From: a virus | Virus record (IMG/VR): IMGVR_UViG_3300036820_000022 | Coordinates: 1 to 58,220 of that record | DNA length: 58,220 bases | Strand: one strand, 5' to 3' | In this document: positions 53 through 58,140 of the stretch, one piece after another | Layout: each line of letters begins with the position of its first letter | Position numbering within the stretch: position 1 is the stretch's first letter | Notes under the pieces: model-generated | What the model saw: the letters and a program-made list of their open reading frames with translations, nothing else | Told to the model about the DNA's origin: nothing | Database searches by the model: none | Translations under genes and position numbers: made by a program

Positions 53-126
53 GCGGGCGTTGCATAGTGGTAATGCCCTTGCCTTCCAAGCAAGAGTCGC
101 GGGTTCGATTCCCGCCGCCCGCTCCA
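53..126 (+). tRNA. tRNA-Gly (anticodon TCC), phage attachment gene
   Basis: This is a full cloverleaf. Acceptor GCGGGCG (53-59) pairs with CGCCCGC (116-122), followed by T and an encoded CCA. The anticodon stem CTTGC/GCAAG closes the loop CTTCCAA with anticodon TCC at 85-87. The T loop is TTCGATT. The gene lies 4 nt after tRNA-Tyr. Its 3' half from base 81 is the attL core, so the integrated phage supplies the 3' half and keeps the gene intact. Confidence 0.97.
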
Positions 127-127
127 G
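81..127 (+). repeat. attL core, 47-bp direct repeat
   Basis: The 47 bases from the anticodon stem to one base past CCA are identical to 58094-58140. The match ends on both sides (T80 against C58093, A128 against C58141). This is the tRNA-3'-half identity block typical of tyrosine integrases that use tRNA genes. Confidence 0.95.
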
Positions 128-134
128 AAAAAAC

Positions 135-157
135 GCCTTATTTTGTAAGGCTTTTTT
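135..157 (+). terminator. Rho-independent terminator after tRNA-Gly
   Basis: Stem GCCTTA/TAAGGC with loop TTTTG is followed by six T. It would end tRNA transcription coming from the left. It is phage DNA, not host DNA, and the TTA at 138-140 is at the same time the stop codon of the leftward integrase. The prophage therefore brings its own terminator to the host tRNA operon. Confidence 0.75.
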
Positions 158-1385
158 CTTTCTTGGTCCGCTTGGCGGAAAGTGGCCGTGGGGCAACGTG
201 TGGGGCAGTAGCTGATTTTTGCTCACTCCCGATCTTCGCGAAGAGGTCGTCGAGTCGCTCGACCGCGTCGCCCACGCGCGAGCTGTACACGTGGCCGTAA
301 ACATCGAAGGTCGTCTTGATGGAGCTGTGCCCCATCCGGTCCCTCGCGATTTCCATCGGGACGCCGGCGAGCCCCATGAGCGCGTTCGCGGTGTGGCGCA
401 GCTCGTAGATCCGTAACTCGCGCGGGAACCGGTACTGCGTGTCGCCGGCCTCCCGCACGGCCTTCTCAGCCTCCTCGGCGGCGCGCACGAGCAACGGGCG
501 CCACCAATACGATCGAAGGCTCGTGAGGCGAATGAGGGCCCCCTGGCGGGTCGTAAAGACGGCGTCGCCGCTGCCTTCATCGAGGCATAGCTTTAGCCGC
601 CTGCGCAGCGCGTCGACGGCGATCGCCGGCAGATCAATCCGGCGCCGGCGCCGCTTCGTCTTGGTGGGCTCGAGGGTCGGGCGATAGCCGGTCGCTGCGG
701 TCGATACGAGGTCGGCCGTAACGAGCAGGTAGCCTTCGTCCAAGTGGACGTCGCGACGCCGAAGCGCGAGCAGTTCCGCCGGCCCCATCGTCGAGGTAAG
801 CGCCAAGATGACAAACGCCTCGAGGCGGTCGCCGCGCGCCGCCGCCAGTAGGAACCCGACTTCGGCCGGCGATAACGCGCGCATCTCTCGCCGCGGCATC
901 TTCGGAGGAGTAACGAGGGCGGCCGGATTGCGGGTAATAAGCTCGAGCTGCGTCGCCTCTCCGAGCACGCGTCGAAGCAGCGAATAGACCGCGCGCCGCA
1001 TCCGCGGGCCAACGTCGAGCTCGTCGATGTGCCGGCGCACGTCAACCGGCGTTATCTCGATGAGGCTCTTGGTCCCGAGCGATCCGAGGTGTTTGGACGT
1101 CCAACGGTAGTATTCGCGCGTGTTCGAACGCACGGGCGCCGTCTGAATCCATCGCTCCACGTATCGGGCAAGCGGCTCGAGGCTGCGTTCGTCGGTGCGC
1201 CGCTCGACGTAGGGTCGCATTTGCTCCTCGACTGCAACTCGGGCGCTGCGCGATCGGTCCGCGCGCCGGCCGAAAAACTTCTTGCGACTGCCGCGCGCAA
1301 TCGTAACCTGGGCGACATACCGGCCGTAGCTGTCGCTCCAATATACGGATCCCTCGCCGTTAGCGCGCTTTCGCTTCGCCGGCAA
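138..1385 (-). CDS. int: Tyrosine-recombinase integrase
   Basis: The 415-residue protein should integrate and excise the phage at tRNA-Gly. It has an N-terminal arm-binding part, a SAM-like core-binding part (about 60-165) and a C-terminal catalytic domain. Visible catalytic residues are the beta-hairpin Lys (about 242-244), Arg330 in YELRHT, His353 in MGHSS and Tyr363 in DVYGHV. The first Arg, expected in a TGxR context, reads STMG (Gly201), and the His of HxxR is Tyr327. A TTG start is used because no ATG or GTG lies between it and the upstream in-frame stop. Its stop codon lies in the tRNA terminator stem. Confidence 0.93.
   Translation of the reverse strand: MPAKRKRANGEGSVYWSDSYGRYVAQVTIARGSRKKFFGRRADRSRSARVAVEEQMRPYVERRTDERSLEPLARYVERWIQTAPVRSNTREYYRWTSKHLGSLGTKSLIEITPVDVRRHIDELDVGPRMRRAVYSLLRRVLGEATQLELITRNPAALVTPPKMPRREMRALSPAEVGFLLAAARGDRLEAFVILALTSTMGPAELLALRRRDVHLDEGYLLVTADLVSTAATGYRPTLEPTKTKRRRRRIDLPAIAVDALRRRLKLCLDEGSGDAVFTTRQGALIRLTSLRSYWWRPLLVRAAEEAEKAVREAGDTQYRFPRELRIYELRHTANALMGLAGVPMEIARDRMGHSSIKTTFDVYGHVYSSRVGDAVERLDDLFAKIGSEQKSATAPHVAPRPLSAKRTKKEKSLTK
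186..212. promoter_or_regulatory. Candidate left arm-type integrase sites (two copies)
   Basis: CCGTGGGGCA (186-195) and GTGGGGCAGTAGC (200-212) are direct repeats inside the 3' end of the integrase gene. The second recurs exactly at 58003-58015 beside attR. Distances to the two core repeats are similar, about 75-80 bp. Integrases of the lambda type bind such arm repeats flanking the core; the assignment here is inference from repetition and position. Confidence 0.55.
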
Positions 1386-5514: not shown

Positions 5515-6674
5515 ATCAAAGTGTGTCGCGCGGCATCCCCATGTCCGCGAGTGCCTCTCGCCAGCGGGAGGACGATGCAATATCGCTGGCAACAAACGCA
5601 CGAACCGAGGAACTGAGTGGGCTGGAAAATGTCAGGTTCCAGCCCCCTCAGGGGTCTGCTTTGAGTAGCGCGCTTGCCGTCCGCCCCGATTGGGTTGATC
5701 TCTCCGATCTGCCCGCGGGCGTTGACCCGTTCGCCATCGCCGTATCCCGGACCGCACTGACGATTCCGCAATGGCTCTCCGTGCGCCGAACGGGCGTCGC
5801 GGCATCCGAGATCGCGTCCGTGCTTGGCGAGAGCAGCTTTAAGACGCCATTCGCACTTTTCATGGAAAAACTCGGCGAATGGGAGCCCGACGATCTTTCC
5901 GATAACGAGGCCGTCGAAATCGGGATCGACCTCGAAGAGTATTGCGGCCGCAAGTTCGCCGAGCGCACGGGGCGCAAGGTCCGCCGCGACAACTTCCTTC
6001 GCCGATGCGCCGAGCACCCGTTCCTGATCGCCGACGTTGACTTCGACGTCGTCGCTGAAGATGGCCAAGCGCCGGAGATCGCCGAGTGCAAGACGTCGCT
6101 CGGACGTGCGGCTTTCACTGATCTTTGGGGCGATGGGCCCTCGGACGTTCCGAACTCCTACGTGCTGCAAGTTATGCAGCAGCTCGTCGTGAAGGGCCGC
6201 AAGCGCGGTTGGATTCCCGCGCTGCTCGCCGGGCCGCGCGTCAAAGTCTACGTCGTCGAGTACCGCGCCGACCTGGCCGACATTATCGTCGAAGCCGCGC
6301 GCGAGTTCTACCAGCGCATGATCGACCGCAACCCGCCGCCGGTGACGTCGCTCGCCGACGCCAAGCGCGCCTTCCCGACGTCGCGCGCCATCGAAGTTCA
6401 GGCCAGCGCTGAGATCGCCGGGGCTGTTGCTGAACTCGTCGCCGCTAAGGCCGTCGAGAAGTCCGACAAAGCGCGCGTCGAGGAACTGCAAGGGAAGATC
6501 GCCGGCTTCATGGCCGATGGCGACACCCTCATGCTCGGCCGCACACGGCTTCTCACTTACAAAAACGTCGAGCGCTCGGGCTACACCGTTGCGCCGTCAA
6601 CTACACGGCAGTTTCGCCTCTCTAGCGCCACTGCTAACCCGCGTCCGTTTCGCCCGCGTGGCGACAAGGAGTAA
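5511..6674 (+). CDS. YqaJ/lambda-Exo-like recombination nuclease
   Basis: A 387-residue protein. GVAASEIASVLGESSFKTP is the YqaJ N-terminal motif, followed by the metal-binding PD-(D/E)XK residues: Glu in IGIDLEEYCG, Asp in DVDFDVVAED and the ExK of EIAECKTS. It should degrade double-strand ends 5' to 3' and feed the annealing protein encoded next. The C-terminal 90 residues form a charged helical tail, also common in this family. The ATG at 5511 overlaps the previous stop; the frame runs 30 nt further upstream without a good start. Confidence 0.92.
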   Translation: MNQSVSRGIPMSASASRQREDDAISLATNARTEELSGLENVRFQPPQGSALSSALAVRPDWVDLSDLPAGVDPFAIAVSRTALTIPQWLSVRRTGVAASEIASVLGESSFKTPFALFMEKLGEWEPDDLSDNEAVEIGIDLEEYCGRKFAERTGRKVRRDNFLRRCAEHPFLIADVDFDVVAEDGQAPEIAECKTSLGRAAFTDLWGDGPSDVPNSYVLQVMQQLVVKGRKRGWIPALLAGPRVKVYVVEYRADLADIIVEAAREFYQRMIDRNPPPVTSLADAKRAFPTSRAIEVQASAEIAGAVAELVAAKAVEKSDKARVEELQGKIAGFMADGDTLMLGRTRLLTYKNVERSGYTVAPSTTRQFRLSSATANPRPFRPRGDKE

Positions 6675-6680
6675 ACGTAC

Positions 6681-7808
6681 ATGAGTACCACTGCCGCAGA
6701 CAAGCCGACCAACGGCGCGGCGATCGTTCCGACCGACCCTAATCCGTTTGGCACCCGTCGGGCGCCCAGCAACGCCGCAGTTGAAGTCGAGAGCCAGCGC
6801 GCGATCGCCGAGACGCAAGCGGCCATGGTCATCGCGCAGCGCTTCCCTCGCGATCCCGTCGTCGGGATGGACCGCATTCTTCAAGCCTTTACGCGCACGA
6901 CGCTGGCCGAAAAGGCGCTCTACACGTACGCCCGCGGCGGGACAGATATCACCGGCCCGTCGATCCGCGCAGCCGAAGCGATCGCCCAAGATTGGGGCAA
7001 TATGCAGTTCGGCATCCGCGAGCTAGAGCAGCGCAGCGGCGAGAGCACCGTCGAAGCCTTTGCCTGGGACGTCGAACGAAACACGCGTTCGACCAAGGTC
7101 TTTCAGGTCAAGCACATTCGGCACACCAAAAAGGGTCAATACCGACTCGAAGATCCGCGCGACATATACGAACTCGTCGCCAACCAGGGCGCCCGACGGC
7201 TGCGCGCCTGCATCCTTTCGATCATCCCGGGCGACGTTATCGAAGCTGCGGTGAAGCAAGCCGAGAAAACGCTTCAGACCAAGGTCGAGCTAACGCCGGA
7301 AAAGATTCAGTCGATGCTCGATATGTTTGGGTCGATCGGCGTGTCGCGCCGGATGCTCGAAGCGAAGATTCAGCGGCGCATCGAGGCAATCACGCCGGCG
7401 CTCGTCGTGCAACTCGGGAAGATCTACAACTCCATCGAGGACGGCATGAGCGGGGTTCAGGATCACTTCGAGATCGAAGAGCAGGCCGCCGACGATGCCA
7501 GCGGCAAGTCGCGCACCGACGCGCTAGCCGATAAGCTGAAGGCTAGGCAGAAACCTGAAGCCGCAGCGCCACCGGCCGAACAAGAGAAGGTCGCGCCGGC
7601 TGCCGAGCAGATCGACGACAAATCGGTTCGCGCCGAGCTGCGGACGAAGATCGCCAAGCTTTGGGAGCACCTTCCGCTCAAAAAGCGCGAGGCCATCCTC
7701 AAGGCAGAGTATCCGAAGCAAAACTCGATCATCGACCTTGCGACCGACCAACTCATCGAGTTCCACGATAAGCTTCCTGAACTGCTCACGCAGGGCGAAG
7801 AAGAGTGA
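6681..7808 (+). CDS. Probable single-strand annealing recombinase partner
   Basis: A 375-residue protein with the conserved block QAAMVIAQRFPRDPVV, then RTTLAEKALYTYARGG, FGIRELEQRSGES and ELVANQGARRLRACIL. I recall this block from phage proteins that stand next to YqaJ exonucleases. Position and length fit a RecT/Erf-like annealing protein, but the family name is not certain. An acidic/Ala-Pro linker precedes a C-terminal helical domain. AAGGAG lies upstream of the ATG. Confidence 0.75.
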   Translation: MSTTAADKPTNGAAIVPTDPNPFGTRRAPSNAAVEVESQRAIAETQAAMVIAQRFPRDPVVGMDRILQAFTRTTLAEKALYTYARGGTDITGPSIRAAEAIAQDWGNMQFGIRELEQRSGESTVEAFAWDVERNTRSTKVFQVKHIRHTKKGQYRLEDPRDIYELVANQGARRLRACILSIIPGDVIEAAVKQAEKTLQTKVELTPEKIQSMLDMFGSIGVSRRMLEAKIQRRIEAITPALVVQLGKIYNSIEDGMSGVQDHFEIEEQAADDASGKSRTDALADKLKARQKPEAAAPPAEQEKVAPAAEQIDDKSVRAELRTKIAKLWEHLPLKKREAILKAEYPKQNSIIDLATDQLIEFHDKLPELLTQGEEE

Positions 7809-13307: not shown

Positions 13308-13519
13308 CGGTCGCGACCGCGGGCTGCGCGGTTTGCGTTGCCAAGGGCGACGTCCGCGCGGCCTCGTCGCACCAGCCGCAGCGGCGTTGCCCGTCGTGCC
13401 GCTCCGCGCTCTGTAACACCCACTCACGGCGGTATTGCCGCAGCGATGGCAAGTGGGGCCGCGTCTGCGGGATTTGCCACACGCATCTGCACGACGAGCA
13501 GTTTCGGGGGGTGGGGTAG
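13304..13519 (+). CDS. Cys-rich zinc-finger protein (71 aa)
   Basis: CAVC, CPSCRSALC, YC and CGICH give enough Cys/His for two cross-braced zinc sites. GTG start overlaps the preceding stop. Function unknown. Confidence 0.65.
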   Translation: MTVATAGCAVCVAKGDVRAASSHQPQRRCPSCRSALCNTHSRRYCRSDGKWGRVCGICHTHLHDEQFRGVG

Positions 13520-13521
13520 CG

Positions 13522-14304
13522 ATGAGCGACAAGAGTAAGATCCAGTGGACTGACGCCACGTGGAATCCAGTTACGGGCTGCACGCAAATCCCGGGCGCGC
13601 ACGGAGGCCCTAGTGGGTGCGACAACTGTTACGCAAAGCGGCTGATCGACACGCGCATGATGGCGAACCCCAAGAGCAGCCGGTACGGCCATCCGTTCGA
13701 AGATGTGATGCTGCATCCCGATCGGCTAGATCAGCCGCTGAAGTGGAAAGAGCCGCGCCGGATCTTCGTCAACTCGCTGAGCGATCTGTTTCACCCCGCA
13801 ATCCCGAGACAGTTCCTTTTTGAGATCTATCTCAGAATGGTGAAGGCCGAGCGCCACACCTTCCAAGTGCTGACGAAGCGGCCGGAACGTGCCAAGAAAA
13901 TGATTCCGCGTGCGATGAATGCGTGCGCGTTTTACGACTGCGAGCTGCTTAGCGATCCACCGGAGAACGTCTGGCTCGGCACGTCGATCTCCTCGATGGC
14001 CGACGCGTGGCGCGCTGAGGCTTTACGAAAGACGCCGGCAGCGGTGCGCTTCCTTTCGCTCGAGCCATTGCTAGGTCCGATCGCGCCTGAAGTACTTCGA
14101 GGTGTCGATTGGGTGATCGTCGGCGGCGAAAGCGGACCCAGATGGCGACCGATGGATCTCGAGTGGGCTCGCGAACTGCGAGCGTACGCAGGCGGCGGAT
14201 TCGGCATCCCGTTCTTCTTCAAGCAGATCGCCGCCATGCGGCCTACCGACGACATGATCCCCGATGATCTGCGCATCCGCGAGTATCCGGAGGCAGGGGC
14301 GTAA
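13522..14304 (+). CDS. Phage Gp37/Gp68-type protein (DUF5131), three-Cys radical-SAM-like
   Basis: A 260-residue protein with IQWTDATWNPVTGC near the start and a C-x14-C-x2-C pattern ending GCDNCYAKRL, the signature of PF07505. Conserved FVNSLSDLFH, FQVLTKRPER, WLGTSIS, FLSLEPLLG and WVIVGGESG follow. The family is frequent in phages and is thought to be radical-SAM-like because of the Cys triad; its substrate is not known to me. ATG 13522 is chosen because the product then begins MSDKSKIQWTD, as in relatives. Confidence 0.9.
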   Translation: MSDKSKIQWTDATWNPVTGCTQIPGAHGGPSGCDNCYAKRLIDTRMMANPKSSRYGHPFEDVMLHPDRLDQPLKWKEPRRIFVNSLSDLFHPAIPRQFLFEIYLRMVKAERHTFQVLTKRPERAKKMIPRAMNACAFYDCELLSDPPENVWLGTSISSMADAWRAEALRKTPAAVRFLSLEPLLGPIAPEVLRGVDWVIVGGESGPRWRPMDLEWARELRAYAGGGFGIPFFFKQIAAMRPTDDMIPDDLRIREYPEAGA

Positions 14305-18967: not shown

Positions 18968-19192
18968 CCGCAGAATACGGAAGAATCGTTCGAGGGATAC
19001 CTAAAGCGGACGCTCGGGGAGAACTATTCCTCGATTGTTATTGACGCGTTGGACGCTCTAGGTCAGCCGTGGGAGTTGCAGAGGCTCCGAGAGATGGAGG
19101 CGCGGGCGAAAGATGAGCTTGAGGTCCCCCACTCCGCGCCCGTGAAGCGTATGTTGCAGCGCATCCTCAACGGCCCCGCTTCCGAGCCGTGA
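18968..19192 (+). pseudogene. Coding-like continuation after an amber codon
   Basis: In the same frame as 18686-18967, 74 sense codons follow the TAG with protein-like content (EESFEGYLKRTLGENY, and later LQRLREMEARAKDELEV), ending at a TGA that overlaps the next GTG. No ATG or GTG start lies near its beginning. It could be the lost C-terminal half of the upstream gene, a readthrough extension, or a separate protein with an internal TTG or ATG start. Confidence 0.5.
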
Positions 19193-19380
19193 AGTACTAC
19201 CGCTTCATGTGCCGCGTCGGCGACGTATTACGATGGGTGGCTCTCGCATACTGCTACGCCTTCCTGGTCGTAACCGTACCGATCGCGTGGATCTGGCAGT
19301 TGATCTATTTGCCGGCGGCGGGATCCAATATAGACGACTTCGATCATCGGCTAGCGCTCATCCCAAAGCGGACGAGTTGA
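19189..19380 (+). CDS. Small membrane protein (63 aa)
   Basis: GTG start overlaps the upstream stop. A long hydrophobic helix (WVALAYCYAFLVVTVPIAW) is followed by a short polar tail. Function unknown. Confidence 0.65.
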   Translation: MKYYRFMCRVGDVLRWVALAYCYAFLVVTVPIAWIWQLIYLPAAGSNIDDFDHRLALIPKRTS

Positions 19381-19451
19381 TGAGAATTAGGCCGTTCGGC
19401 CCAATGTTCAACTCAAGCGGGCGTCAAAGGAACGTGATGCAATCACACTAA
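19380..19451 (+). CDS. Mini-ORF (23 aa)
   Basis: TGATG overlap with the membrane protein gene. Basic, no recognisable pattern. Low confidence. Confidence 0.25.
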   Translation: MRIRPFGPMFNSSGRQRNVMQSH

Positions 19452-19475
19452 CGTTCGATTCGGAGACGCCGTAAA

Positions 19476-19823
19476 ATGGATAACAAAGACATCGCCTCAG
19501 TTTTAGCCGAGTTGGGTGGCACGATCATTCGCGCGCTACTGGACCGTGGAGTCGGAACTAAACGCGCAACGGACGCTGGCGAACGCTATCTCGACCTCGT
19601 TAGCCGGATGGCGACAGAAGCGCGAAACTTTAAGACGCTGGGCGGGAGCGGAATCGTCTCTATCAGGGACCTCGAGCCAGAGACCCTCCAAACAATCGTG
19701 GTCTTACAAAAAAGCGAGTGGGGTCGCATATGGCTGGATGATAAAGACGGTCTCTGTTTCCGATACACATCCGAAAGGGGACAAGGTACTCGTTTTCAAG
19801 AGGAGAGCTCGTTTCAGGTATAA
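19476..19823 (+). CDS. Unknown protein (115 aa)
   Basis: Starts MDNKDIASVLAELGGTI. The last 40 residues look like a small beta domain. Codon use is less GC-rich than in the phage core. No family is recognised. Confidence 0.6.
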   Translation: MDNKDIASVLAELGGTIIRALLDRGVGTKRATDAGERYLDLVSRMATEARNFKTLGGSGIVSIRDLEPETLQTIVVLQKSEWGRIWLDDKDGLCFRYTSERGQGTRFQEESSFQV

Positions 19824-19835
19824 GAAAGTCATGCG

Positions 19836-20204
19836 CTGCGTAACATCAGCTTCGCCCTAACGACGCAGCAGATCCGCGATCGCACAAAGACGGTGACACG
19901 GCGGCTGGGCTGGCGATTTCTGAAGCCGGGCGATCTGCTTTCGGCAGTCGTGCAATCTCGCGGGCTACGCAAGGGCCAGAAAGTCGAACGGCTCGCAACA
20001 ATCCGCGTCGTCTCCGTCCGGCGCGAGCGTTTGCTGGCGATCCGGCGCGATACGGACTACGGCCTCGAAGAGTGCCGGCTCGAAGGGTTTGCCGATCACC
20101 CCGAGCTGCAATGGCCCGACCGTTTCGCGGCCTGGTTTGCCGCAGGTCACGGCTGCGAGATCGATGACGAGGTTACCCGCATCGAGTTTGAGTACGTCGG
20201 GTGA
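19836..20204 (+). CDS. ASCH/PUA-like domain protein, probable CTG start
   Basis: About 122 residues. TKTVTRRLGWRFLKPGD, then GLRKGQKVERLATIRVVSV and the Arg/Asp pattern after it match the ASCH-type phage proteins I recall, which begin with xISFxLTTxQ just before this block. Here that block (NISFALTTQQI) is encoded in frame upstream of the first GTG (19893), and only a CTG (19836) is available before the in-frame stop. The domain probably binds RNA or modified bases. Confidence 0.7.
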   Translation: MRNISFALTTQQIRDRTKTVTRRLGWRFLKPGDLLSAVVQSRGLRKGQKVERLATIRVVSVRRERLLAIRRDTDYGLEECRLEGFADHPELQWPDRFAAWFAAGHGCEIDDEVTRIEFEYVG

Positions 20205-20214
20205 AACACCCGTT

Positions 20215-20232
20215 CCGTAACACATGTTACGG
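20215..20232. promoter_or_regulatory. Palindromic operator-like site 1
   Basis: CCGTAACA-CA-TGTTACGG is a perfect 18-bp palindrome between two genes. A partial copy (GACACTTGTTC) follows directly. It shares its arms with the sites at 21116, 21388 and 32499. Confidence 0.6.
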
Positions 20233-20285
20233 TGACACTTGTTCGGCAGGGAAGGCCGGGATGTTTTTCGTACAGGCGCGGTCCT

Positions 20286-20477
20286 ATGCCATCCAGAGCT
20301 CCCAGAGGACTCTCGCGCAAGCAACTTGCGAAACGAAAACGGCAGCGTGAAGCAGCCATCTCGGCTCAGCCGCGCTTCTGCTCGCGCTGTCAAAGCCAAA
20401 TGGTGCGCCGTCGACGGGGCGACGAGCCATGGCGCTGGGTATGCTCTAACTTTTGCGGCGCGGAGATCAGCGTTTGA
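20286..20477 (+). CDS. Small basic zinc-ribbon protein (63 aa)
   Basis: A basic N-terminal helix (SRKQLAKRKRQREAAIS) is followed by FCSRCQSQM and WVCSNFC, one zinc site. ATG at 20286 is favoured because the upstream part of the frame overlaps the palindrome. Ends in a TGATG overlap. Confidence 0.6.
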   Translation: MPSRAPRGLSRKQLAKRKRQREAAISAQPRFCSRCQSQMVRRRRGDEPWRWVCSNFCGAEISV

Positions 20478-20722
20478 TGCCTGGACGCGTTACTCACACT
20501 GCCGGCGGCCGCGGCGATGTGTCGATGGGTCGACAGCACGGCGGCGCCGGAATTACGGCGCGCGAATATGGCCCACCGGCTGATGCGCAACCGCCTGCAT
20601 GCTGGGATTGCAAATCCCCGATGCGCCTATGTGAAGGCAGAAAACCGCCGCACGCGCAGTTCTGGGGCTGCAGCGCTTACCCGAAGTGCAAGCGCTCTCT
20701 CTGGATTCGGAGGCCCGATTAG
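20477..20722 (+). CDS. Topoisomerase-type zinc-finger protein (81 aa)
   Basis: CWDCKSPMRLCEG, then FWGCSAYPKCKRSLWI is the pattern of C-terminal zinc fingers of bacterial topoisomerase I (CPxC, FxGCSxYPxC), here as a free protein. It probably binds single-stranded DNA or RNA polymerase. Confidence 0.75.
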   Translation: MPGRVTHTAGGRGDVSMGRQHGGAGITAREYGPPADAQPPACWDCKSPMRLCEGRKPPHAQFWGCSAYPKCKRSLWIRRPD

Positions 20723-20869
20723 ACGGCGGACACTTGTTACAGGGTTTGCGTCACGTAGCCAGGATTCGCGCCTGCTGGAACCCTCAGTACTGCTCGTATT
20801 TGACGAGCTGGCCGGTAGCATCTCGGCCAACGATCGAGCGGCTCGCGCCCTCGAAAACGATGCTGGACT

Positions 20870-20902
20870 CGCGGCGAAAGCCGCGTGGTTATAATATAAC
20901 CA
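20870..20902 (+). promoter_or_regulatory. GNRA-type hairpin plus palindromic -10 element before the omega gene
   Basis: CGCGGC-GAAA-GCCGCG (20870-20885) is a perfect tetraloop hairpin. Directly after it, TGGTTATA-A-TATAACCA (20886-20902) is a perfect 17-bp palindrome containing TATAAT (20890-20895). No good -35 box is seen at the usual distance, so an activator may be needed. About 160 bases upstream (20723-20869) hold no convincing gene, only a partial operator-like sequence at 20728-20740. Confidence 0.6.
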
Positions 20903-20918
20903 TGGCAGGAGGGGAAAA

Positions 20919-21152
20919 ATGACCGACCTGAACCGCACCGCCGAACGCGCGCAGGCAAAAGCCGGATCGCGATTCACCCTCGTGGGCGCGATAGTGAGGC
21001 GAGCGCATCAACTGACCGAAGGTTACCCGCCGCTGGTCACCGGCGTCGAGATCGACAAGCACGCGACGACGGCCTTGAGAGAGATTGCCGCCGGCGCGGT
21101 GGAAATCGGCAAGAGCGTAACACCTGTTACGGTAAAGGAGTTGGCGGCGTGA
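20919..21152 (+). CDS. rpoZ: RNA polymerase omega subunit-like protein
   Basis: A 77-residue protein. GSRFTLVGAIVRRAHQL, GYPPLVTG, DKHATTALREIAAGAV follows the omega pattern closely (G-x-RF-x-LV, RRA-x-Q, PLV, DK, ALREI-x-x-G). Omega wraps the C-terminal tail of beta-prime, helps assembly of RNA polymerase and mediates part of the ppGpp response. A strong GGAGGGG ribosome site and the preceding palindromic promoter suggest high, regulated expression. It lies deep inside the prophage, so it is a phage gene; it may replace or compete with host omega. Confidence 0.85.
   Translation: MTDLNRTAERAQAKAGSRFTLVGAIVRRAHQLTEGYPPLVTGVEIDKHATTALREIAAGAVEIGKSVTPVTVKELAA
21116..21131. promoter_or_regulatory. 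Palindromic operator-like site 2
   Basis: CGTAACA-CC-TGTTACG is a perfect palindrome inside the 3' end of the omega-like gene. Same arms as sites 1 and 3. Confidence 0.55.
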
Positions 21153-21355
21153 AGGAGATCGACGAGTTGTGCGCGTGCGGTCACCTTGCATCAGCCGACC
21201 ACAGCTATCCGCCCTACGTAGATTCAAGCCGACACCATAAACCATGCACCCCAATCCAGAGAAAGGGCGCAATCTTCGAACTCCTAGCGTGGTGCCGTAT
21301 TTGCGCGCCGAAGGAATACGAGGACGCGGTGAAAAGAGGGGCTGAACTTCTATAA
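21149..21355 (+). CDS. Small Cys/His-containing protein (68 aa)
   Basis: GTGA overlap with the omega-like gene. CACGHLASADHSY and CRICAP suggest a zinc site. Function unknown; co-translation with omega hints at a linked role. Confidence 0.6.
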   Translation: MKEIDELCACGHLASADHSYPPYVDSSRHHKPCTPIQRKGAIFELLAWCRICAPKEYEDAVKRGAELL

Positions 21356-21387
21356 CGGCATCGAAAAGGACCGACAAAGAGCCTAAC

Positions 21388-21405
21388 GCGTAACACTTGT
21401 TACGC
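21388..21405. promoter_or_regulatory. Palindromic operator-like site 3 with possible promoter
   Basis: GCGTAACA-CT-TGTTACGC is a perfect palindrome in the 135-bp gap after 21355. TTGTTA inside it could be a -35 box for AGTAAT 17 bp downstream (21420-21425), so a bound protein would block this promoter, which faces the packaging genes. Confidence 0.6.
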
Positions 21406-21490
21406 AAACCGCACAAAATAGTAATTATCACGCCAAAGTGCTGCACGTTCGGCAGGAATCCAAGCGACGGCTAAATGAAGCCGACGCAAC

Positions 21491-22150
21491 GTGCACGCCG
21501 AGCGTACAACGCGCGCCGTCTTTTGGCAGTTAGCCTTCTGGCCACCTAACCGCGAGATCGTCGTCTCTGAGCGACGGGCGGTTTCCGGCGTCGCGGCGCG
21601 GCTGCAAATCCTCGAACTCCACGTTTTAACCCTCCAGCGCAGCACGATCGAAGGCCCGGAATCATACCCGTGCACCTATCCGGGCTGCGCGCGCGGAAAC
21701 AATCACCCGTTCGGGACGTCGGGCCACCTGGGCAATCATCGCCTCGCAGCCCACGGCATCCGCAGTACCAACGAAGAGTCGATCCGCCGCCAAGAGCGGC
21801 GCGATCGCAACCGTGCAAAAGAGCTTGGGCCGGCGCCTGAATACATCGACCGCGCGCACATCCGCGAAGTCGTCTCCCACGCGCTGCCGGCGCTCCGTGA
21901 GGCGCGCCAAGGCGAACTCGACGCTGGCGACCGAGAGCACGTGCGCCGACGTTTGTCACACTTTGTCGGCAAAGAGTTGCCTCGGGAGTTACGGCGCGCG
22001 CCGGCGGAGATTTGCCTCGCCGTCGCAGAGATCGCCGCCTCGGGGCTCACCCCGACCTATCCCAAGATCGTCGAGTCGGCGCAGACGGACTTACACATCG
22101 AGCGGATCACAACGCTGTTCACCAAGACCTCGATGCCGGTGGCGATGTGA
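21491..22150 (+). CDS. C2H2-type zinc-finger protein before the terminase (219 aa)
   Basis: YPCTYPGCARG followed by SGHLGNHRLAAHG has the C-x4-C-x12-H-x4-H spacing of C2H2 fingers. A highly charged, helical second half follows. GTG at 21491 is the first start after an in-frame stop; a shorter start is possible. The position before TerS suggests a link to late expression or packaging. Confidence 0.6.
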   Translation: MHAERTTRAVFWQLAFWPPNREIVVSERRAVSGVAARLQILELHVLTLQRSTIEGPESYPCTYPGCARGNNHPFGTSGHLGNHRLAAHGIRSTNEESIRRQERRDRNRAKELGPAPEYIDRAHIREVVSHALPALREARQGELDAGDREHVRRRLSHFVGKELPRELRRAPAEICLAVAEIAASGLTPTYPKIVESAQTDLHIERITTLFTKTSMPVAM

Positions 22151-22689
22151 AGAAGGCATCTGCTACAGCCCCGGACGAGGCGCGGCGAAGCCCGCGCAAA
22201 AAGGCGCCGAAAGCGAGCAAAACGCCCGGCAGAATCGGCAGGCCGCCAAAGCTTACGCCTGAGCTTCAAGCCGAAATCTGCGAGGCGCTCGAAATAGCCG
22301 TGCCCGAGAAATACGCAGCCGAGGCAGTCGGCGTTTCCGAGGTGACGTTTCACGAGTGGATGCGGAAAGGCAAAGAAGGAGCCGAACCGTTTGACGAGTT
22401 TTTCGTAGCCGTGACGCGTGCGCGCGCGAAAGCCGTCACGAAGCTCACAAAGCACGCTCTGGGCGGCGAAAAAGGCAGCTCTCAGGCGGCGTGGTTTCTC
22501 GAGCGCCGCTTCCGTAAGGCGTACGGCGCGCACGTTATGGTCGGCGGGATGGAAGACGGCGAGCCGATTCGGCTTGCGGGCGACTTGAAGATTTCCGCTG
22601 ATCTGCGCGCCAGTTCCGATGCGACCAAAAAGATTCACGATGCGATCCGTTCGGCTGCCGGTACGGCGCCGGAGTTGGAGGAAAAATGA
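22147..22689 (+). CDS. Terminase small subunit
   Basis: A 180-residue protein. A Lys/Ala-rich lead is followed by GRPPKLTPELQAEICEAL, then AAEAVGVSEVTFHEWMRKG, the helix-turn-helix pattern of small terminases, and a helical oligomerisation part (FVAVTRARAKAVTKLTKHA, AAWFLERRFRKAYG). It should recognise the packaging site and deliver DNA to TerL, encoded 1.2 kb downstream. GTG overlaps the preceding stop. Confidence 0.85.
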   Translation: MKKASATAPDEARRSPRKKAPKASKTPGRIGRPPKLTPELQAEICEALEIAVPEKYAAEAVGVSEVTFHEWMRKGKEGAEPFDEFFVAVTRARAKAVTKLTKHALGGEKGSSQAAWFLERRFRKAYGAHVMVGGMEDGEPIRLAGDLKISADLRASSDATKKIHDAIRSAAGTAPELEEK

Positions 22690-22901
22690 AACGCTTCGAC
22701 CGCGTGCGCTACGTCCCGGTGGCCGACGAGGTTTGGGAAGCGTCGAAGTGCCGCATTCTTGGCGCTCAGGACCTACCGCCCGGCTCAACCGGCCGCGTCA
22801 TCTCCGTTCGGCGAAAATCGCAGCGTGCCGTCGTGCAGTTTGTCATCGGTGACAGCCGCGGCGCGCGCATCGTGCCGCTGGCGGCGTTGGAGGCGGCGTG
22901 A
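22686..22901 (+). CDS. Small SH3/KOW-like protein (71 aa)
   Basis: DLPPGSTGRVISVRRKSQRA with flanking beta strands resembles a KOW/SH3 barrel. ATGA overlap with terS. Function unknown. Confidence 0.6.
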   Translation: MKRFDRVRYVPVADEVWEASKCRILGAQDLPPGSTGRVISVRRKSQRAVVQFVIGDSRGARIVPLAALEAA

Positions 22902-23206
22902 TTAGCTCCCTTCGCGCGTTCTGGAGTTCACTATGGTTGGGCGAGCGTTTTGAACCTAGTCGGCCACTAACCGAAGCGGAATGGGTTGCGAAGTACGGTG
23001 ATCGTCCGTTCCGCATCGTGCGCCATGGATTGCGATTCGCGGGCGGTGGCTATCACGCGCCTGAGATCGAGTATCGACCCGGATACGAACGCACGATACC
23101 GACGACGGAGCGCGCGATGTCAGTGTTACGAAAGCCGATTCCGAAAGGCTGTCCACCGGCGCCCACGCCTGAATCGGTGCAATACGTCGTTCACGGCTAC
23201 TGGTGA
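22898..23206 (+). CDS. Unknown protein (102 aa)
   Basis: GTGA overlaps at both ends. Starts MISSLRAFWSSLWLGERFEP. Rich in aromatic residues, Pro and Arg; no family recognised. Confidence 0.6.
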   Translation: MISSLRAFWSSLWLGERFEPSRPLTEAEWVAKYGDRPFRIVRHGLRFAGGGYHAPEIEYRPGYERTIPTTERAMSVLRKPIPKGCPPAPTPESVQYVVHGYW

Positions 23207-23874
23207 GCAACCTTAAGCTCGTCCTTTGGTCGGGCGGCTGTGATTCGACGTTGGCGCTCTACGAAGCGCTTCTCGATCAAAAGCTCTGGGTCGTCGACGG
23301 CAAGCAGCTTTCCGAGGTTCGAGCGATCTCCGTCGTGCATCCGAGCGTTCCGTGCAACGGCCAGCAAGCGGTATCTCGCGCGAAAATTCTTGCCGAGTTC
23401 CAAAAGCGCGGCCTCGTCACGCGGCACAGCACGGTTACGGTTTCTAACGATGCCGACACTCCGCGCCGTGGCAAGGATGGCGGTTCAATCCAGACGCAAA
23501 TCTGGCTCGGGGCCGTCGCTCCGTATCTCGACGACACCGAGAGCCTGAACCTCGGCTGGATCGAAGGTGAGTTCGACAACGCCGACCATGCGATCGCAGC
23601 GTTCGACGCGCTCCAGAAGGTCAACGGCAAGACCGGGAAGCTTGCGTTTCCACTTCAGAGGCGCACCAAGCCTGAGATCATCGAGCGGCTGCGGAAAGCC
23701 GAACTGCTCGACCTGTGCTGGTATTGTGAAGGCGTTGGCGATGATCGTAGCGCGGATACGATTGAAGCGTCCTGCGGCAGCTGCTTGAAGTGCATTAAGC
23801 ACGCAACGGCGCTTTGGCAGCTCGAACACTGGCCACACGAAGCACTTGTCGCCGCGACGATTCTGGACAAATGA
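23203..23874 (+). CDS. QueC-like PP-loop enzyme
   Basis: A 223-residue protein. The ATP-binding PP-loop LVLWSGGCDSTLALYEA and the C-terminal zinc cluster CWYCEG, then CGSCLKC match 7-cyano-7-deazaguanine (preQ0) synthase. Some phages make preQ0 to modify guanines in their DNA. No FolE, QueD, QueE or DpdA partner is visible here, so it may use host preQ0 precursors or act on another substrate, as QueC-like proteins do in some defence systems. It lies between terS and terL. Confidence 0.75.
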   Translation: MSNLKLVLWSGGCDSTLALYEALLDQKLWVVDGKQLSEVRAISVVHPSVPCNGQQAVSRAKILAEFQKRGLVTRHSTVTVSNDADTPRRGKDGGSIQTQIWLGAVAPYLDDTESLNLGWIEGEFDNADHAIAAFDALQKVNGKTGKLAFPLQRRTKPEIIERLRKAELLDLCWYCEGVGDDRSADTIEASCGSCLKCIKHATALWQLEHWPHEALVAATILDK

Positions 23875-23887
23875 GCGATGCGACGAT

Positions 23888-25408
23888 ATGGGCGATAAGT
23901 TGACCCCCAAAGCCGCGCAGATCGACGAAGACACCGTACTTGCGGGGACGTCGCCGGCGGGATTAGCGTTCGTCGCAACCAAAAGCGACCCGCGCCCGTA
24001 CGTTCCCGCGGAGTTCCATCTCATCATGGCCCAAGCGATGGTGGACCTCGAACAGCATCGGCTTGACGCGTTGTTTATGAGCGTGCCGGTGCGTCATGGC
24101 AAAACGAGGCTCGGCTCCAACATCATGCCTGCGTGGTTTCTTGGGCTTCATCCCGATCGCGAGATTCTGGCCGCGTCGCACGCCGCTGAGTTCGCAGCGG
24201 ATAAGGTCGGCGGACCGGCGCGTGACTTCTTCGTTCGGACTTCAAAGCGTTACTTCGGCGTCACGATCGACCCGTTAGCCAACGCGCGCGGTCGCTGGAA
24301 AACCTCTGGCGGCGGCGGAATGCGCGCGGTCGGCGTACAGCAAGGCATCGCGGGCCAAGGCGCGGACCTCGCGATCGTCGACGACCCGTACGCCAACGTC
24401 GAGGACGCGATGAATCGGCGGCAGCGCGATAAGGCGTGGGAATGGTATCAAGCCGAGTTCGTCACCCGCTGCTCACCCGGCGCGCCGCACATTCACATTA
24501 TGAGCCGGTGGAACGTCGATGACCACATGGCCCGCGCGCTCGAACAGGCCAAAGAGGCAAAGCTGCGCTACCGCGTTCTTGACTTCCCAGCGTTGGCAAT
24601 CTGCCCGAAGTGCGACGATTACGGCGTCGACGCCGTCAATCAATGCGGTCACGGCATCCGCGATTCGTTGGGCCGGCTACCCGGTGAAGCGTTGTGGCCC
24701 CAGGAGCGACCGCGAGACTTCTTGCTTCAGCAGCGCATTCGCACGACGCCGCGGTTCTTTGACGCGCTCTACCAAGGACGGCCGCGCCCCGATGCCGGCG
24801 CGATCTTCCGGCGCGAATGGTTCCGTCGCTATCACATAATCGGACCGCGCATCTTCCTGCACGACGAGTTCGGCAGAGTTAGCGGCGGCTACGATTTGCA
24901 CCAGTGCCGCATCTTTATGACCGTCGATCTCGCCGCCGGAACGTCATCGACCGACGGAGACTTCACCGTCTTTGGCGTCTTTGCGCTGGGCCCAAAGCAC
25001 GAGCTCATCGTCCTGGATTGGTTTCGCGATCGTATCGATGGCACGCGGCAGATTCCGATGCTGCGGGCCTATTGGAACAAACATCGTGCCGTGCGCATCG
25101 GCGTCGAGGCTGTTGCCTATCAGTGGGTCTTTATCCAAAACGCGCTCGCCGAAGGTTTGCCGATCGTCGCGATCAAGCGCGGGCGCGAAGGCAAAGAGAC
25201 ACGTTCGCTACTCGTCGCCAGCCGCTACGAAATGGGCCAGGTCTTTCATCCGCTGCCGGCAGATGCGCCCTGGGTCGTCGGAATGGAGAATGAACTGATC
25301 GACTTTCCGGTAGGCGCACACGACGATCAGGTGGACGTGATGAGTGACGCGGGCGCCGTGGTAGCCGAAGCCGAGACGCGACCGATGGCGATAGGAGTGC
25401 AGGTGTGA
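23888..25408 (+). CDS. Terminase large subunit
   Basis: A 506-residue motor-nuclease. Walker A-like FMSVPVRHGKTRLGS, Walker B LAIVDDPY, and an RNase H-type nuclease domain with FMTVDLAAG and the late Asp pair in HDDQVDVMSD are visible. GHGIRDSLGRLPGEALWP is typical of this TerL group. ATG 23888 gives MGDKLTPK; the frame is open 42 nt further but overlaps the QueC-like gene. Confidence 0.95.
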   Translation: MGDKLTPKAAQIDEDTVLAGTSPAGLAFVATKSDPRPYVPAEFHLIMAQAMVDLEQHRLDALFMSVPVRHGKTRLGSNIMPAWFLGLHPDREILAASHAAEFAADKVGGPARDFFVRTSKRYFGVTIDPLANARGRWKTSGGGGMRAVGVQQGIAGQGADLAIVDDPYANVEDAMNRRQRDKAWEWYQAEFVTRCSPGAPHIHIMSRWNVDDHMARALEQAKEAKLRYRVLDFPALAICPKCDDYGVDAVNQCGHGIRDSLGRLPGEALWPQERPRDFLLQQRIRTTPRFFDALYQGRPRPDAGAIFRREWFRRYHIIGPRIFLHDEFGRVSGGYDLHQCRIFMTVDLAAGTSSTDGDFTVFGVFALGPKHELIVLDWFRDRIDGTRQIPMLRAYWNKHRAVRIGVEAVAYQWVFIQNALAEGLPIVAIKRGREGKETRSLLVASRYEMGQVFHPLPADAPWVVGMENELIDFPVGAHDDQVDVMSDAGAVVAEAETRPMAIGVQV

Positions 25409-27031: not shown

Positions 27032-27336
27032 AGCGCCCCGCCAAAGTTAAGCGCGGCCGCGCCATCAAGACCGTCACGCTCTCGAATATCGCGCGCCCAA
27101 GCTCGGCGAAGATGAAGCCGCTGTCGTCGCACGCTGCCCCGCACAAAAAGCGCGGCGAGCACAAAGAGCCCAAGGCGAAAGGCAAAACTGCGTCGACGCC
27201 CCGGGCAGCACGCGCACCTCGCGGCCACAAGCACGAGGGCAAAGTCCGGACAGCAAAGGATACGAACATCGAGAAGAAGGCGTCAAAGCCGCGCAACGAG
27301 CCGGCATCGCCTAAGAAGCCGAAGTGGTTTTCGTGA
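27028..27336 (+). CDS. Lys/Ala/Pro-rich, histone-H1-like basic protein (102 aa)
   Basis: From the GTG at 27028 the product is extremely basic with repeated KP, AK and HK runs and almost no hydrophobic core, so it is probably disordered and binds nucleic acid. H1-like tails of this type condense DNA. Its place just before the portal would fit an internal virion protein or a packaging aid, but that is inference. Confidence 0.6.
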   Translation: MKRPAKVKRGRAIKTVTLSNIARPSSAKMKPLSSHAAPHKKRGEHKEPKAKGKTASTPRAARAPRGHKHEGKVRTAKDTNIEKKASKPRNEPASPKKPKWFS

Positions 27337-28199
27337 ACGCCGCCGTTCTCAGCATCATCGAGAAGCAGCGCGAAATGTGGCGCCTTCAGAAAGCCGACCG
27401 ACGAGCGCGGCGTTCCGAGGATGCCTGCGCTGCCTGCGCGGTTCGCCAGTGCAGGCCAAGCCGTCGTAAGTGCGAGCAGTGCCTAGAATACGATAATCAA
27501 GCGAAGAAAAACGGACACGCGCGCTTTCTCGCGGCTGGGCTATGCGTTGTCTGCGGTAAAGCTAAACCGCCGACCGGACGTTTAACCTGTGTTAGGTGCT
27601 GCGCTATCTCGACTTCCGACCAAAAGGCTCGGCGCGCCAGACGCGTCGCTCAGGGCGCGTGCTCGCGCTGCGGAGTAGATCGTGACGACCTACGCTTCAA
27701 AGAGTGCGCAACGTGCCGCGAGTTCGGGCGCAATAGGTACACTGAAGCGCTGACCCAAGCTGGAAAGAAGCGGCATGCCGAGATCGTTGCCGAGCGCGTC
27801 GCTATTGGACGCTGCCCTCGCGACGGAGCCAAGCTGGCCGATGGAGCCTGCGCGGCATGCGAAGCAACGCGCCACGAAAAGTATCGACGAGCGCATCGGC
27901 GTAAGCGGCAACTGGCGATGAAGCGTGGGACCTGCACGACGTGCGCGGTGCTCAAGCCGCAGCCAGGATACAAAGTCTGCCGCCGGTGCATCGACCGTAC
28001 GATCGCGCACCAAAAGCGAGTTCGCCAAGCTCGGCCTCGCGTCGAGCGCGGCCCACGTACCCACTGCCGTAACGGCCACCTGTTCGATGACCGGAACACG
28101 CACGTTTACAAAGGGCGCCGACGCTGCCGCGCCTGCGTGGCCGCTGCGGGCGAAAGATACCGAGAGCGTAAGGGGACACGCCAGGCCGTAGCCGCCTAA
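27333..28199 (+). CDS. Multi-zinc-ribbon protein with repeated modules (288 aa)
   Basis: Six Cys modules follow each other: CAACAVRQC with CEQC, GLCVVCGK with CVRC, GACSRCGV with CATC, GRCPRDG with CAAC, GTCTTCAV with CRRC, and a last HCRNGHLFDDRNTHVYKG with CRACV. Linkers are Arg/Lys-rich. The last module is known from the ends of HNH-type and other phage proteins. It is probably an RNA- or DNA-binding array; GTG overlaps the preceding stop. Confidence 0.75.
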   Translation: MNAAVLSIIEKQREMWRLQKADRRARRSEDACAACAVRQCRPSRRKCEQCLEYDNQAKKNGHARFLAAGLCVVCGKAKPPTGRLTCVRCCAISTSDQKARRARRVAQGACSRCGVDRDDLRFKECATCREFGRNRYTEALTQAGKKRHAEIVAERVAIGRCPRDGAKLADGACAACEATRHEKYRRAHRRKRQLAMKRGTCTTCAVLKPQPGYKVCRRCIDRTIAHQKRVRQARPRVERGPRTHCRNGHLFDDRNTHVYKGRRRCRACVAAAGERYRERKGTRQAVAA

Positions 28200-32198: not shown

Positions 32199-32504
32199 AT
32201 GAGCGTCTCGACTTCGCAAGTCAATCCGTTGACGACCGGCGACACCCAAGAGGCGATGCCGGCGGTCCATTCAACTTTTCGCAAGAAGTTCGGCATCCCG
32301 CCCAAGGGAACGCCGCCGCCGGGCGGTTGGGCTGACTCCGACTACGGCTTCCCGCTGCCGCCGTCCGATCACCCGCTGGCCTACAAGTTCGCGCGCGCCG
32401 TACTGAACCGCGCTCATCAGGCCACGAACTTCGACCCAGCCGACGTCGCCAAGCAGGTTCGTAAAGCCAAAACCATCGTCGCCAAGCACGATAAGGGCGC
32501 GTAA
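32199..32504 (+). CDS. Unknown head-region protein (101 aa)
   Basis: Pro/Gly-rich middle and a helical, basic C terminus (AKQVRKAKTIVAKHDKGA). I recall similar tails (HPLAYKFARAVLNRA) in phage head-cluster proteins of unknown role. Preceded by cassette B, without a Shine-Dalgarno sequence. Confidence 0.6.
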   Translation: MSVSTSQVNPLTTGDTQEAMPAVHSTFRKKFGIPPKGTPPPGGWADSDYGFPLPPSDHPLAYKFARAVLNRAHQATNFDPADVAKQVRKAKTIVAKHDKGA

Positions 32505-37414: not shown

Positions 37415-38077
37415 ATGCAGATCGCGTGCTTTTGGTTAGAGGGAACTTTACGCGCGCGGCGCTCGCTCCGGCGCTACTCGCGCGAGGGATCGCCCGACGC
37501 CGCTGTCTGTAAGCAGCCGTGGGGTTACCACAACGCCCATGCGCTAATCGACGACGTCCCGTTTGAAATCAAGCCGAGCGGTGTCAGAAGCGAATACCGA
37601 ACGTTCGACTTCCTGGGCGCCGATAAGCTCGAGCTTTTTCCGGCCGAAGATCCGCGCTGGCCGGCCAAATGCGAACACTGCGACTATCGCTTTGAGGACG
37701 GGGACAAGCGCCAGGTATTTATCCGGCCGCTTTATCGACGCATAGATACGAGCGAAGAGTTGATCCTCGACGACGCACCGCCGGGTGCGATGTGGGATGC
37801 CTGGTGGTACGGAGATTCTGATTTTCCGACGCCGCCACGCCCCGATGGCATCCACTTAATGGTGCGCTGCCCCGGCTTTATGGCGGAAGACGGGAGCCAT
37901 GCCGACTGGTACGTCGACGGCATCGCCGGGAACGGAGACCGGAATTCTTACGGATGGAGTCGCTCGGGCATTCCGAACCAGCATCCGCCGAGCGTCACCG
38001 CAAACCCGTCGATCCAGATCACCCAGACTAACGGCTACCATGGGCGGCTTAAAAGCGGTTTTTTGGTACCAGCGTGA
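37415..38077 (+). CDS. Conserved phage virion-region protein (220 aa)
   Basis: Contains CEHCDYRFEDGDKRQVF, then LDDAPPGAMWDAWW and DGIHLMVRCPGF, which I recall from a conserved phage protein family of unknown function near the head-tail junction. GTGA overlap with the MuF gene. Confidence 0.75.
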   Translation: MQIACFWLEGTLRARRSLRRYSREGSPDAAVCKQPWGYHNAHALIDDVPFEIKPSGVRSEYRTFDFLGADKLELFPAEDPRWPAKCEHCDYRFEDGDKRQVFIRPLYRRIDTSEELILDDAPPGAMWDAWWYGDSDFPTPPRPDGIHLMVRCPGFMAEDGSHADWYVDGIAGNGDRNSYGWSRSGIPNQHPPSVTANPSIQITQTNGYHGRLKSGFLVPA

Positions 38078-58093: not shown

Positions 58094-58140
58094 GCCTTCC
58101 AAGCAAGAGTCGCGGGTTCGATTCCCGCCGCCCGCTCCAG
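58094..58140 (+). repeat. attR core: displaced 3' half of tRNA-Gly
   Basis: Identical to 81-127. No 5' half of the tRNA precedes it, so it is the host's original 3' end, cut off by integration and not a functional tRNA. The 80 bases after it (58141-58220) are host DNA in which I see no gene. Confidence 0.95.

Follow-up and report, generated by a model that had tools for sequence, protein, structure and literature searches.

Among the subunits of bacterial RNA polymerase, omega is the one described as enigmatic. In E. coli cells without omega, the distribution of the polymerase over prophage genes is altered (PMC5811629), and GafA, the regulator of a gene transfer agent that resembles a phage, turns on transcription through its binding to omega (PMC9638019). 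Jumbo phages possess multisubunit RNA polymerases with phage-encoded parts of the two largest subunits (PMC7598289). A small exchangeable component of another host machine, the ribosomal protein bS21, is encoded by phages near terminase and structural or capsid genes, and a late action has been proposed for it (PMC9723584).

Here, we analyse an omega gene within a stretch of viral DNA of 58,220 nt, positions 1 to 58,220 of the IMG/VR record IMGVR_UViG_3300036820_000022, which is referred to as the window. The original prediction, made without database searches, had taken one of its small open reading frames for a phage-encoded omega subunit, and this assignment is borne out by profile matches as well as by fold comparison. 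The 77-aa product scores 47.5 bits (E 1.8e-12) against the Pfam family PF01192 with a cut-off of 26, and 39.7 bits against TIGR00690 (rpoZ) of NCBIfam with a cut-off of 23.6. PF01192 matches at this single place in the whole record. In a search of the PDB with phmmer, omega chains rank first (E 6.7e-5). The conserved RRA/ALREI-G core and the similar length are common to the phage product and bacterial omega, and all core omega positions are present in the alignment, with 32-36% identity to the omegas of Salmonella and Omnitrophota. An open frame in antisense direction (20889-21446, minus strand) was rejected as an alternative, as the plus-strand product has the family match and codon-level constraint. 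A scan of genome contigs returned only the housekeeping omegas of Omnitrophota. No family of PHROGs v4 matched any omega tested, the Salmonella protein included, and omega genes are therefore likely to stay unannotated in phages.

An AF2 model calculated from 16 viral and cellular omegas reached a pLDDT of 80.8 and a pTM of 0.66; an earlier model from four sequences was poor (pLDDT 58). The three predicted helices (residues 4-15, 18-33 and 48-57) agree with those known from other bacterial omegas such as the chlamydial protein, with helices at 9-15, 19-36 and 44-55 (PMC9973325). Every top structure match in the PDB is an RNA polymerase omega chain, the fit being 1.0 Å over 55 columns at 44% identity, and VIA-align to an E. 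coli omega gave an rmsd of 1.3 over 59 residues and a Z of 8.6, a value which alone is not decisive for small helical proteins but is so together with the profile scores. Foldseek E-values (PDB, BFVD) exceed 0.01 for such a small protein, so the identification relies on the profiles and on the fact that the top structure matches are omegas throughout; on these grounds it is practically certain that the product belongs to the omega family. The two best matches in the viral library BFVD (A0A6J5T227 and A0A6J7WH19, from uncultured Caudovirales) are labelled DNA-directed RNA polymerase, which means that similar proteins are already present in databases.

The window is a nearly bare, complete integrated prophage of a temperate tailed phage of about 58 kb, as indicated by the integrase, the att repeats at a tRNA-Gly gene and the terminase genes (Table 1). 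Host contamination was considered and rejected, because almost all of the record lies between the att repeats and omega has phage genes on either side. The housekeeping layout with gmk directly upstream and spoT or coaBC downstream, as seen in the Omnitrophota, Salmonella and Acinetobacter loci, is absent; the phage gene sits outside such a gmk-rpoZ-spoT/coaBC operon and just upstream of the terminase genes. Its codon-position GC equals that of the adjacent phage genes, giving no sign of a recent import. Searches of the record for beta-prime (PF04997, matched by all 14 controls) and for sigma region 2 found neither, from which it follows that the phage omega can work solely with a host polymerase. 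Among its neighbours, the Cys-rich ORF has no family match, and the 219-aa protein, whose match to the Pfam C2H2 family is below the cut-off, is a candidate regulator. Elsewhere in the prophage, a Hint/intein-type insertion was observed in a Mu F-like head morphogenesis protein (38074-39996), between HPSC and CRCTVV.

Table 1. Coordinates of features in the window and, where named, in other contigs.
Feature	Position	Strand	Remarks
tRNA-Gly	53-126		
attL	81..127	+	47-bp repeat at 3′ part of tRNA-Gly
Tyrosine integrase	138..1385	-	PF00589, 44.8 bits
CCGTAACACATGTTACGG palindrome	20215..20232	+	
Inverted repeat CGCGGC-GAAA-GCCGCG	20870..20885	+	directly upstream of TGGTTATAATATAACCA palindrome
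Perfect palindrome TGGTTATAATATAACCA	20886..20902	.	8-bp arms, 1-nt centre
Shine-Dalgarno sequence AGGAGGGG	20907..20914	+	AGGAGG six bases before start
Omega (RpoZ) gene	20919..21152	+	77 aa, ATG to TGA; PF01192 and TIGR00690 above cut-offs
CGTAACACCTGTTACG palindrome	21116..21131	+	inside 3′ end of omega gene
68-aa Cys-rich ORF	21149..21355	+	GTG start overlaps omega stop (GTGA)
GCGTAACACTTGTTACGC palindrome, ACACTTGT core	21388..21405	+	gap before packaging genes
219-aa protein	21491..22150	+	C2H2-like cluster C61, C66, H83, H88; 61% identical in L022
Terminase small subunit (TerS)	22012..22689	+	phrog_4102, E 1e-20; true start uncertain
PP-loop/QueC-like protein	23203..23874	+	PF06508 just below cut-off; 51% identity in L022
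Terminase large subunit (TerL)	23846..25408	+	phrog_38, E 1.6e-80; 47% identical in L022
attR	58094..58140	+	47-bp repeat identical to attL
Strand-biased ACACTTGT/GTAACACNTGTTAC sites	window 20215-21405, 32500, 33074, 42431; L022 7616, 7660, 8692		
HD_4-domain proteins	L059:6270-6788; L066 about 6476-7093; L068:6798-7328		

One close relative was found in IMG/VR, a contig of 14.5 kb (L002/L020/L022/L025) with an omega 71% identical to that of the window; a search for relatives based on TerL found distant phages only. The gene order of this contig is the same, namely omega, small ORFs, a 222-aa zinc-finger-like protein, TerS, the PP-loop protein and TerL, so that the position of omega before the packaging genes appears to be conserved, as supported by one close relative. 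The ORF following omega starts with GTGA there as well, and its product is a different protein of 118 aa. By the Nei-Gojobori method, dN is 0.29 and dS 1.30 for omega, a ratio of about 0.22 that is approximate as synonymous sites are near saturation; omega is tighter than TerL (dN 0.50, dS 1.34). Judged from these substitution rates, the phage omega is clearly under purifying selection. Such constraint between two divergent phages bears on the idea that a host rpoZ was captured by chance and has little function for the phage. The gene is small, and hosts can often do without their rpoZ, the loss of which causes mild growth defects (PMC9638019), but the ratio, the conserved position and the wide recurrence of omega in phages described below make a mere passenger highly improbable. 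Further genes have counterparts in the relative. The PP-loop/QueC-like protein is encoded just before TerL in both phages (L020:8068-8733 in the relative) and perhaps has a role in DNA modification. A DUF5131 protein (PF07505, 250 bits; 13435-14304) lies upstream of omega, as does a protein similar by eye in the relative (L020:3325-4077), and a Cys-rich protein with repeated CxxC units and without a Pfam family (27324-28199) resembles by eye one at L020:11110-12021.

When IMG/VR was scanned twice with alignments of omega, 68 loci were detected, which encode 45 distinct omega proteins; nine of these loci are repeats, leaving 59 contigs, the close relative among them. In 58 of the 59 contigs, representing about 43 distinct proteins (L025-L046, L049-L094), omega has no gmk neighbour, and the sole contig with gmk upstream and spoT downstream (L029, identical to L054) is host DNA. 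No gmk was present in seventeen other records searched as a whole, and no beta-prime in 40 omega-carrying records searched. A T4-type major capsid protein was detected in 7 of 20 tested records, compared with none of 14 cellular controls, and Terminase_6 profiles left most of the large omega contigs unrecognised. Judged from this gene content, many uncultured tailed phages, several of them T4-like, have a stand-alone omega. The original prediction also held that omega genes are rarely reported from tailed phages. This is true for papers and cultured phages, and not for uncultured phage contigs. A description of stand-alone phage omegas was not found in open-licence papers, which is weak evidence of absence, and all inspected matches among the cultured phages of INPHARED (the inspection left out two Enterococcus, two Listeria and two short Escherichia/Salmonella records) turned out to be rpoZ loci of hosts, with gmk and/or spoT next to them, in records filed as phage. 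Phage-filed records of this kind include L024 (MG065686), L047 (CAKLQH020000003) and L048 (MT839270), and host DNA in such records is a trap for the annotation of phage omegas.

In many of these unrelated phages, omega is a plain protein of 66-80 aa with no added domain. A tree of 77 alignment columns, including three cellular omegas, places the window and L025 in a long-branched clade of their own (support for this clade 100/100), apart from the main phage group. The plain form, together with the complete set of core positions, would suit a back-up omega that supplements or restores omega function, i.e. folding and stability of beta-prime, during infection or in starved hosts and leaves promoter choice unchanged. 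The N-terminal region of omega indeed binds beta-prime and helps it to fold (PMC9973325). Against this, the host presumably has an omega of its own, and both the long divergent branch and the location next to late genes point to a role specific to the phage; we regard a back-up function as rather unlikely.

The MAR motif at the N-terminus, which contributes to ppGpp binding, occurs in many proteobacterial omegas and is not universal. The phage omega begins with MTDLNRT instead of MAR(V/I)T, and the suggestion in the original prediction that a phage omega could change the ppGpp response is weakened since the motif is not retained intact; yet an arginine may still correspond to it, as one alignment puts R6 opposite R3 of the motif. 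A related possibility is that the phage omega acts as an inhibitor or decoy, displacing host omega and thereby shutting down or reprogramming host transcription, for instance by removing the omega-dependent ppGpp site. The altered N-terminus fits this, given that ppGpp site 1 in E. coli is partly formed by omega residues 2-5 (PMC7676912). However, besides the alignment of R6, most other phage omegas keep a MAR-type N-terminus, and site 1 is conserved in proteobacteria and not in all phyla (PMC7676912). Such a decoy is quite unlikely in our assessment. In several large phages, a protein with an HD_4 domain (PF13328, SpoT/MESH1-type hydrolase fold) is encoded about 2-3 kb downstream of omega, which makes a link to ppGpp possible there.

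The DNA around the gene contains several conspicuous elements. The strong ribosome-binding site of the original prediction was confirmed (AGGAGGGG). Of the proposed palindromic promoter, the palindrome TGGTTATAATATAACCA is present and includes TATAAT at 20890-20895, but a promoter is not supported, as no sigma-70 site was detected when 19000-24000 was scanned. This palindrome may be an operator or a -10 element. The window contains 8 palindromes with arms of 8 bp, compared with 5-14 in shuffles, so that one of this length is not remarkable, and the relative has no palindrome at its omega start. A stronger signal comes from the GTAACANNTGTTAC repeats, with three perfect copies (20217, 21117 and 21390), a one-mismatch copy at 32501, and altogether 7 sites at up to two mismatches versus 0.41 expected. 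The core of this repeat, ACACTTGT, occurs in 6 copies in the window, all on the plus strand, versus 0.5 expected. L022 has 3 copies, of which two fall into the corresponding gap ahead of its zinc-finger-like gene; the ACACTTGT core within the GCGTAACACTTGTTACGC palindrome, which precedes the packaging genes in the window, recurs there at the same place. From their distribution, the ACACTTGT/GTAACACNTGTTAC sites are predicted to be, and likely are, binding sites of a phage regulator.

Late-gene regulators in many phages lie in a place similar to that of omega here, directly before the packaging genes. The explanation we favour, and consider somewhat probable, is that the phage omega is an exchangeable subunit which joins the host RNA polymerase in lytic growth and most likely aids late phage transcription. 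Once the gene is expressed, for which the lytic phase is the most likely time, its product would fold into the omega three-helix domain and bind host beta-prime, replacing or competing with host omega. The resulting phage-marked host polymerase would then most likely be helped to transcribe late phage genes, either by a preference for phage promoters or by a docking surface for a phage regulator. A late role appears most likely because omega is located directly before the packaging genes, beside a conserved putative zinc-finger protein and repeated palindromes, and it is made plausible by the precedents of omega-less E. coli (PMC5811629) and GafA (PMC9638019). The steps differ in strength: action within the host polymerase is likely, and that the transcription of late phage genes benefits is a reasoned guess. 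Lytic timing and an effect on promoter choice are what we infer from the setting, and expression might instead take place at a different stage or during lysogeny. A more specific version is doubtful: the phage omega, the zinc-finger-like protein and the ACACTTGT palindromes might form a late-gene switch with omega as docking platform, in which the regulator recruits solely polymerase carrying the phage omega. If this were true, a private polymerase would be gained by changing the smallest subunit alone.

The recurrence of stand-alone omegas in many uncultured tailed phages adds interest to the prophage case. As omega is the sole known polymerase subunit in these phages, its exchange alone seems to be worth something to a virus. 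In addition, phage omegas represent a natural set of variants from which the effects of omega on promoter choice and regulator recruitment can be learned.

In comparison with bacterial omega (RpoZ), the phage protein shares a family score above the cut-offs, the three-helix fold, the core and a similar length, and differs in its prophage location outside the housekeeping operon, the MAR motif that is not intact, and the sequence identity of only 32-36% to the Salmonella and Omnitrophota omegas. The polymerases of the phiKZ/AR9 type, with phage-encoded beta and beta-prime, are likewise relatives of cellular polymerase subunits, whereas the search for beta-prime (PF04997) found none in the window. 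The omega-like proteins of uncultured tailed phages are also found on phage DNA and without beta-prime in the records searched; many of their carriers are large and some T4-like, in contrast to the temperate phage of about 58 kb described here, whose omega forms a clade of its own with L025. GafA is the DNA-binding regulator which, along with omega, is needed by the phage-like late genes of the gene transfer agent of Rhodobacter (PMC9638019), but that omega belongs to the host, while here omega is phage-borne and a regulator partner is a guess. The nearest analogue is phage bS21 (PMC9723584). It belongs to the ribosome instead of RNA polymerase, and expression data exist for it. Like bS21, the phage omega would be a small exchangeable part of a machine of the host, and the genes of both lie close to terminase genes.
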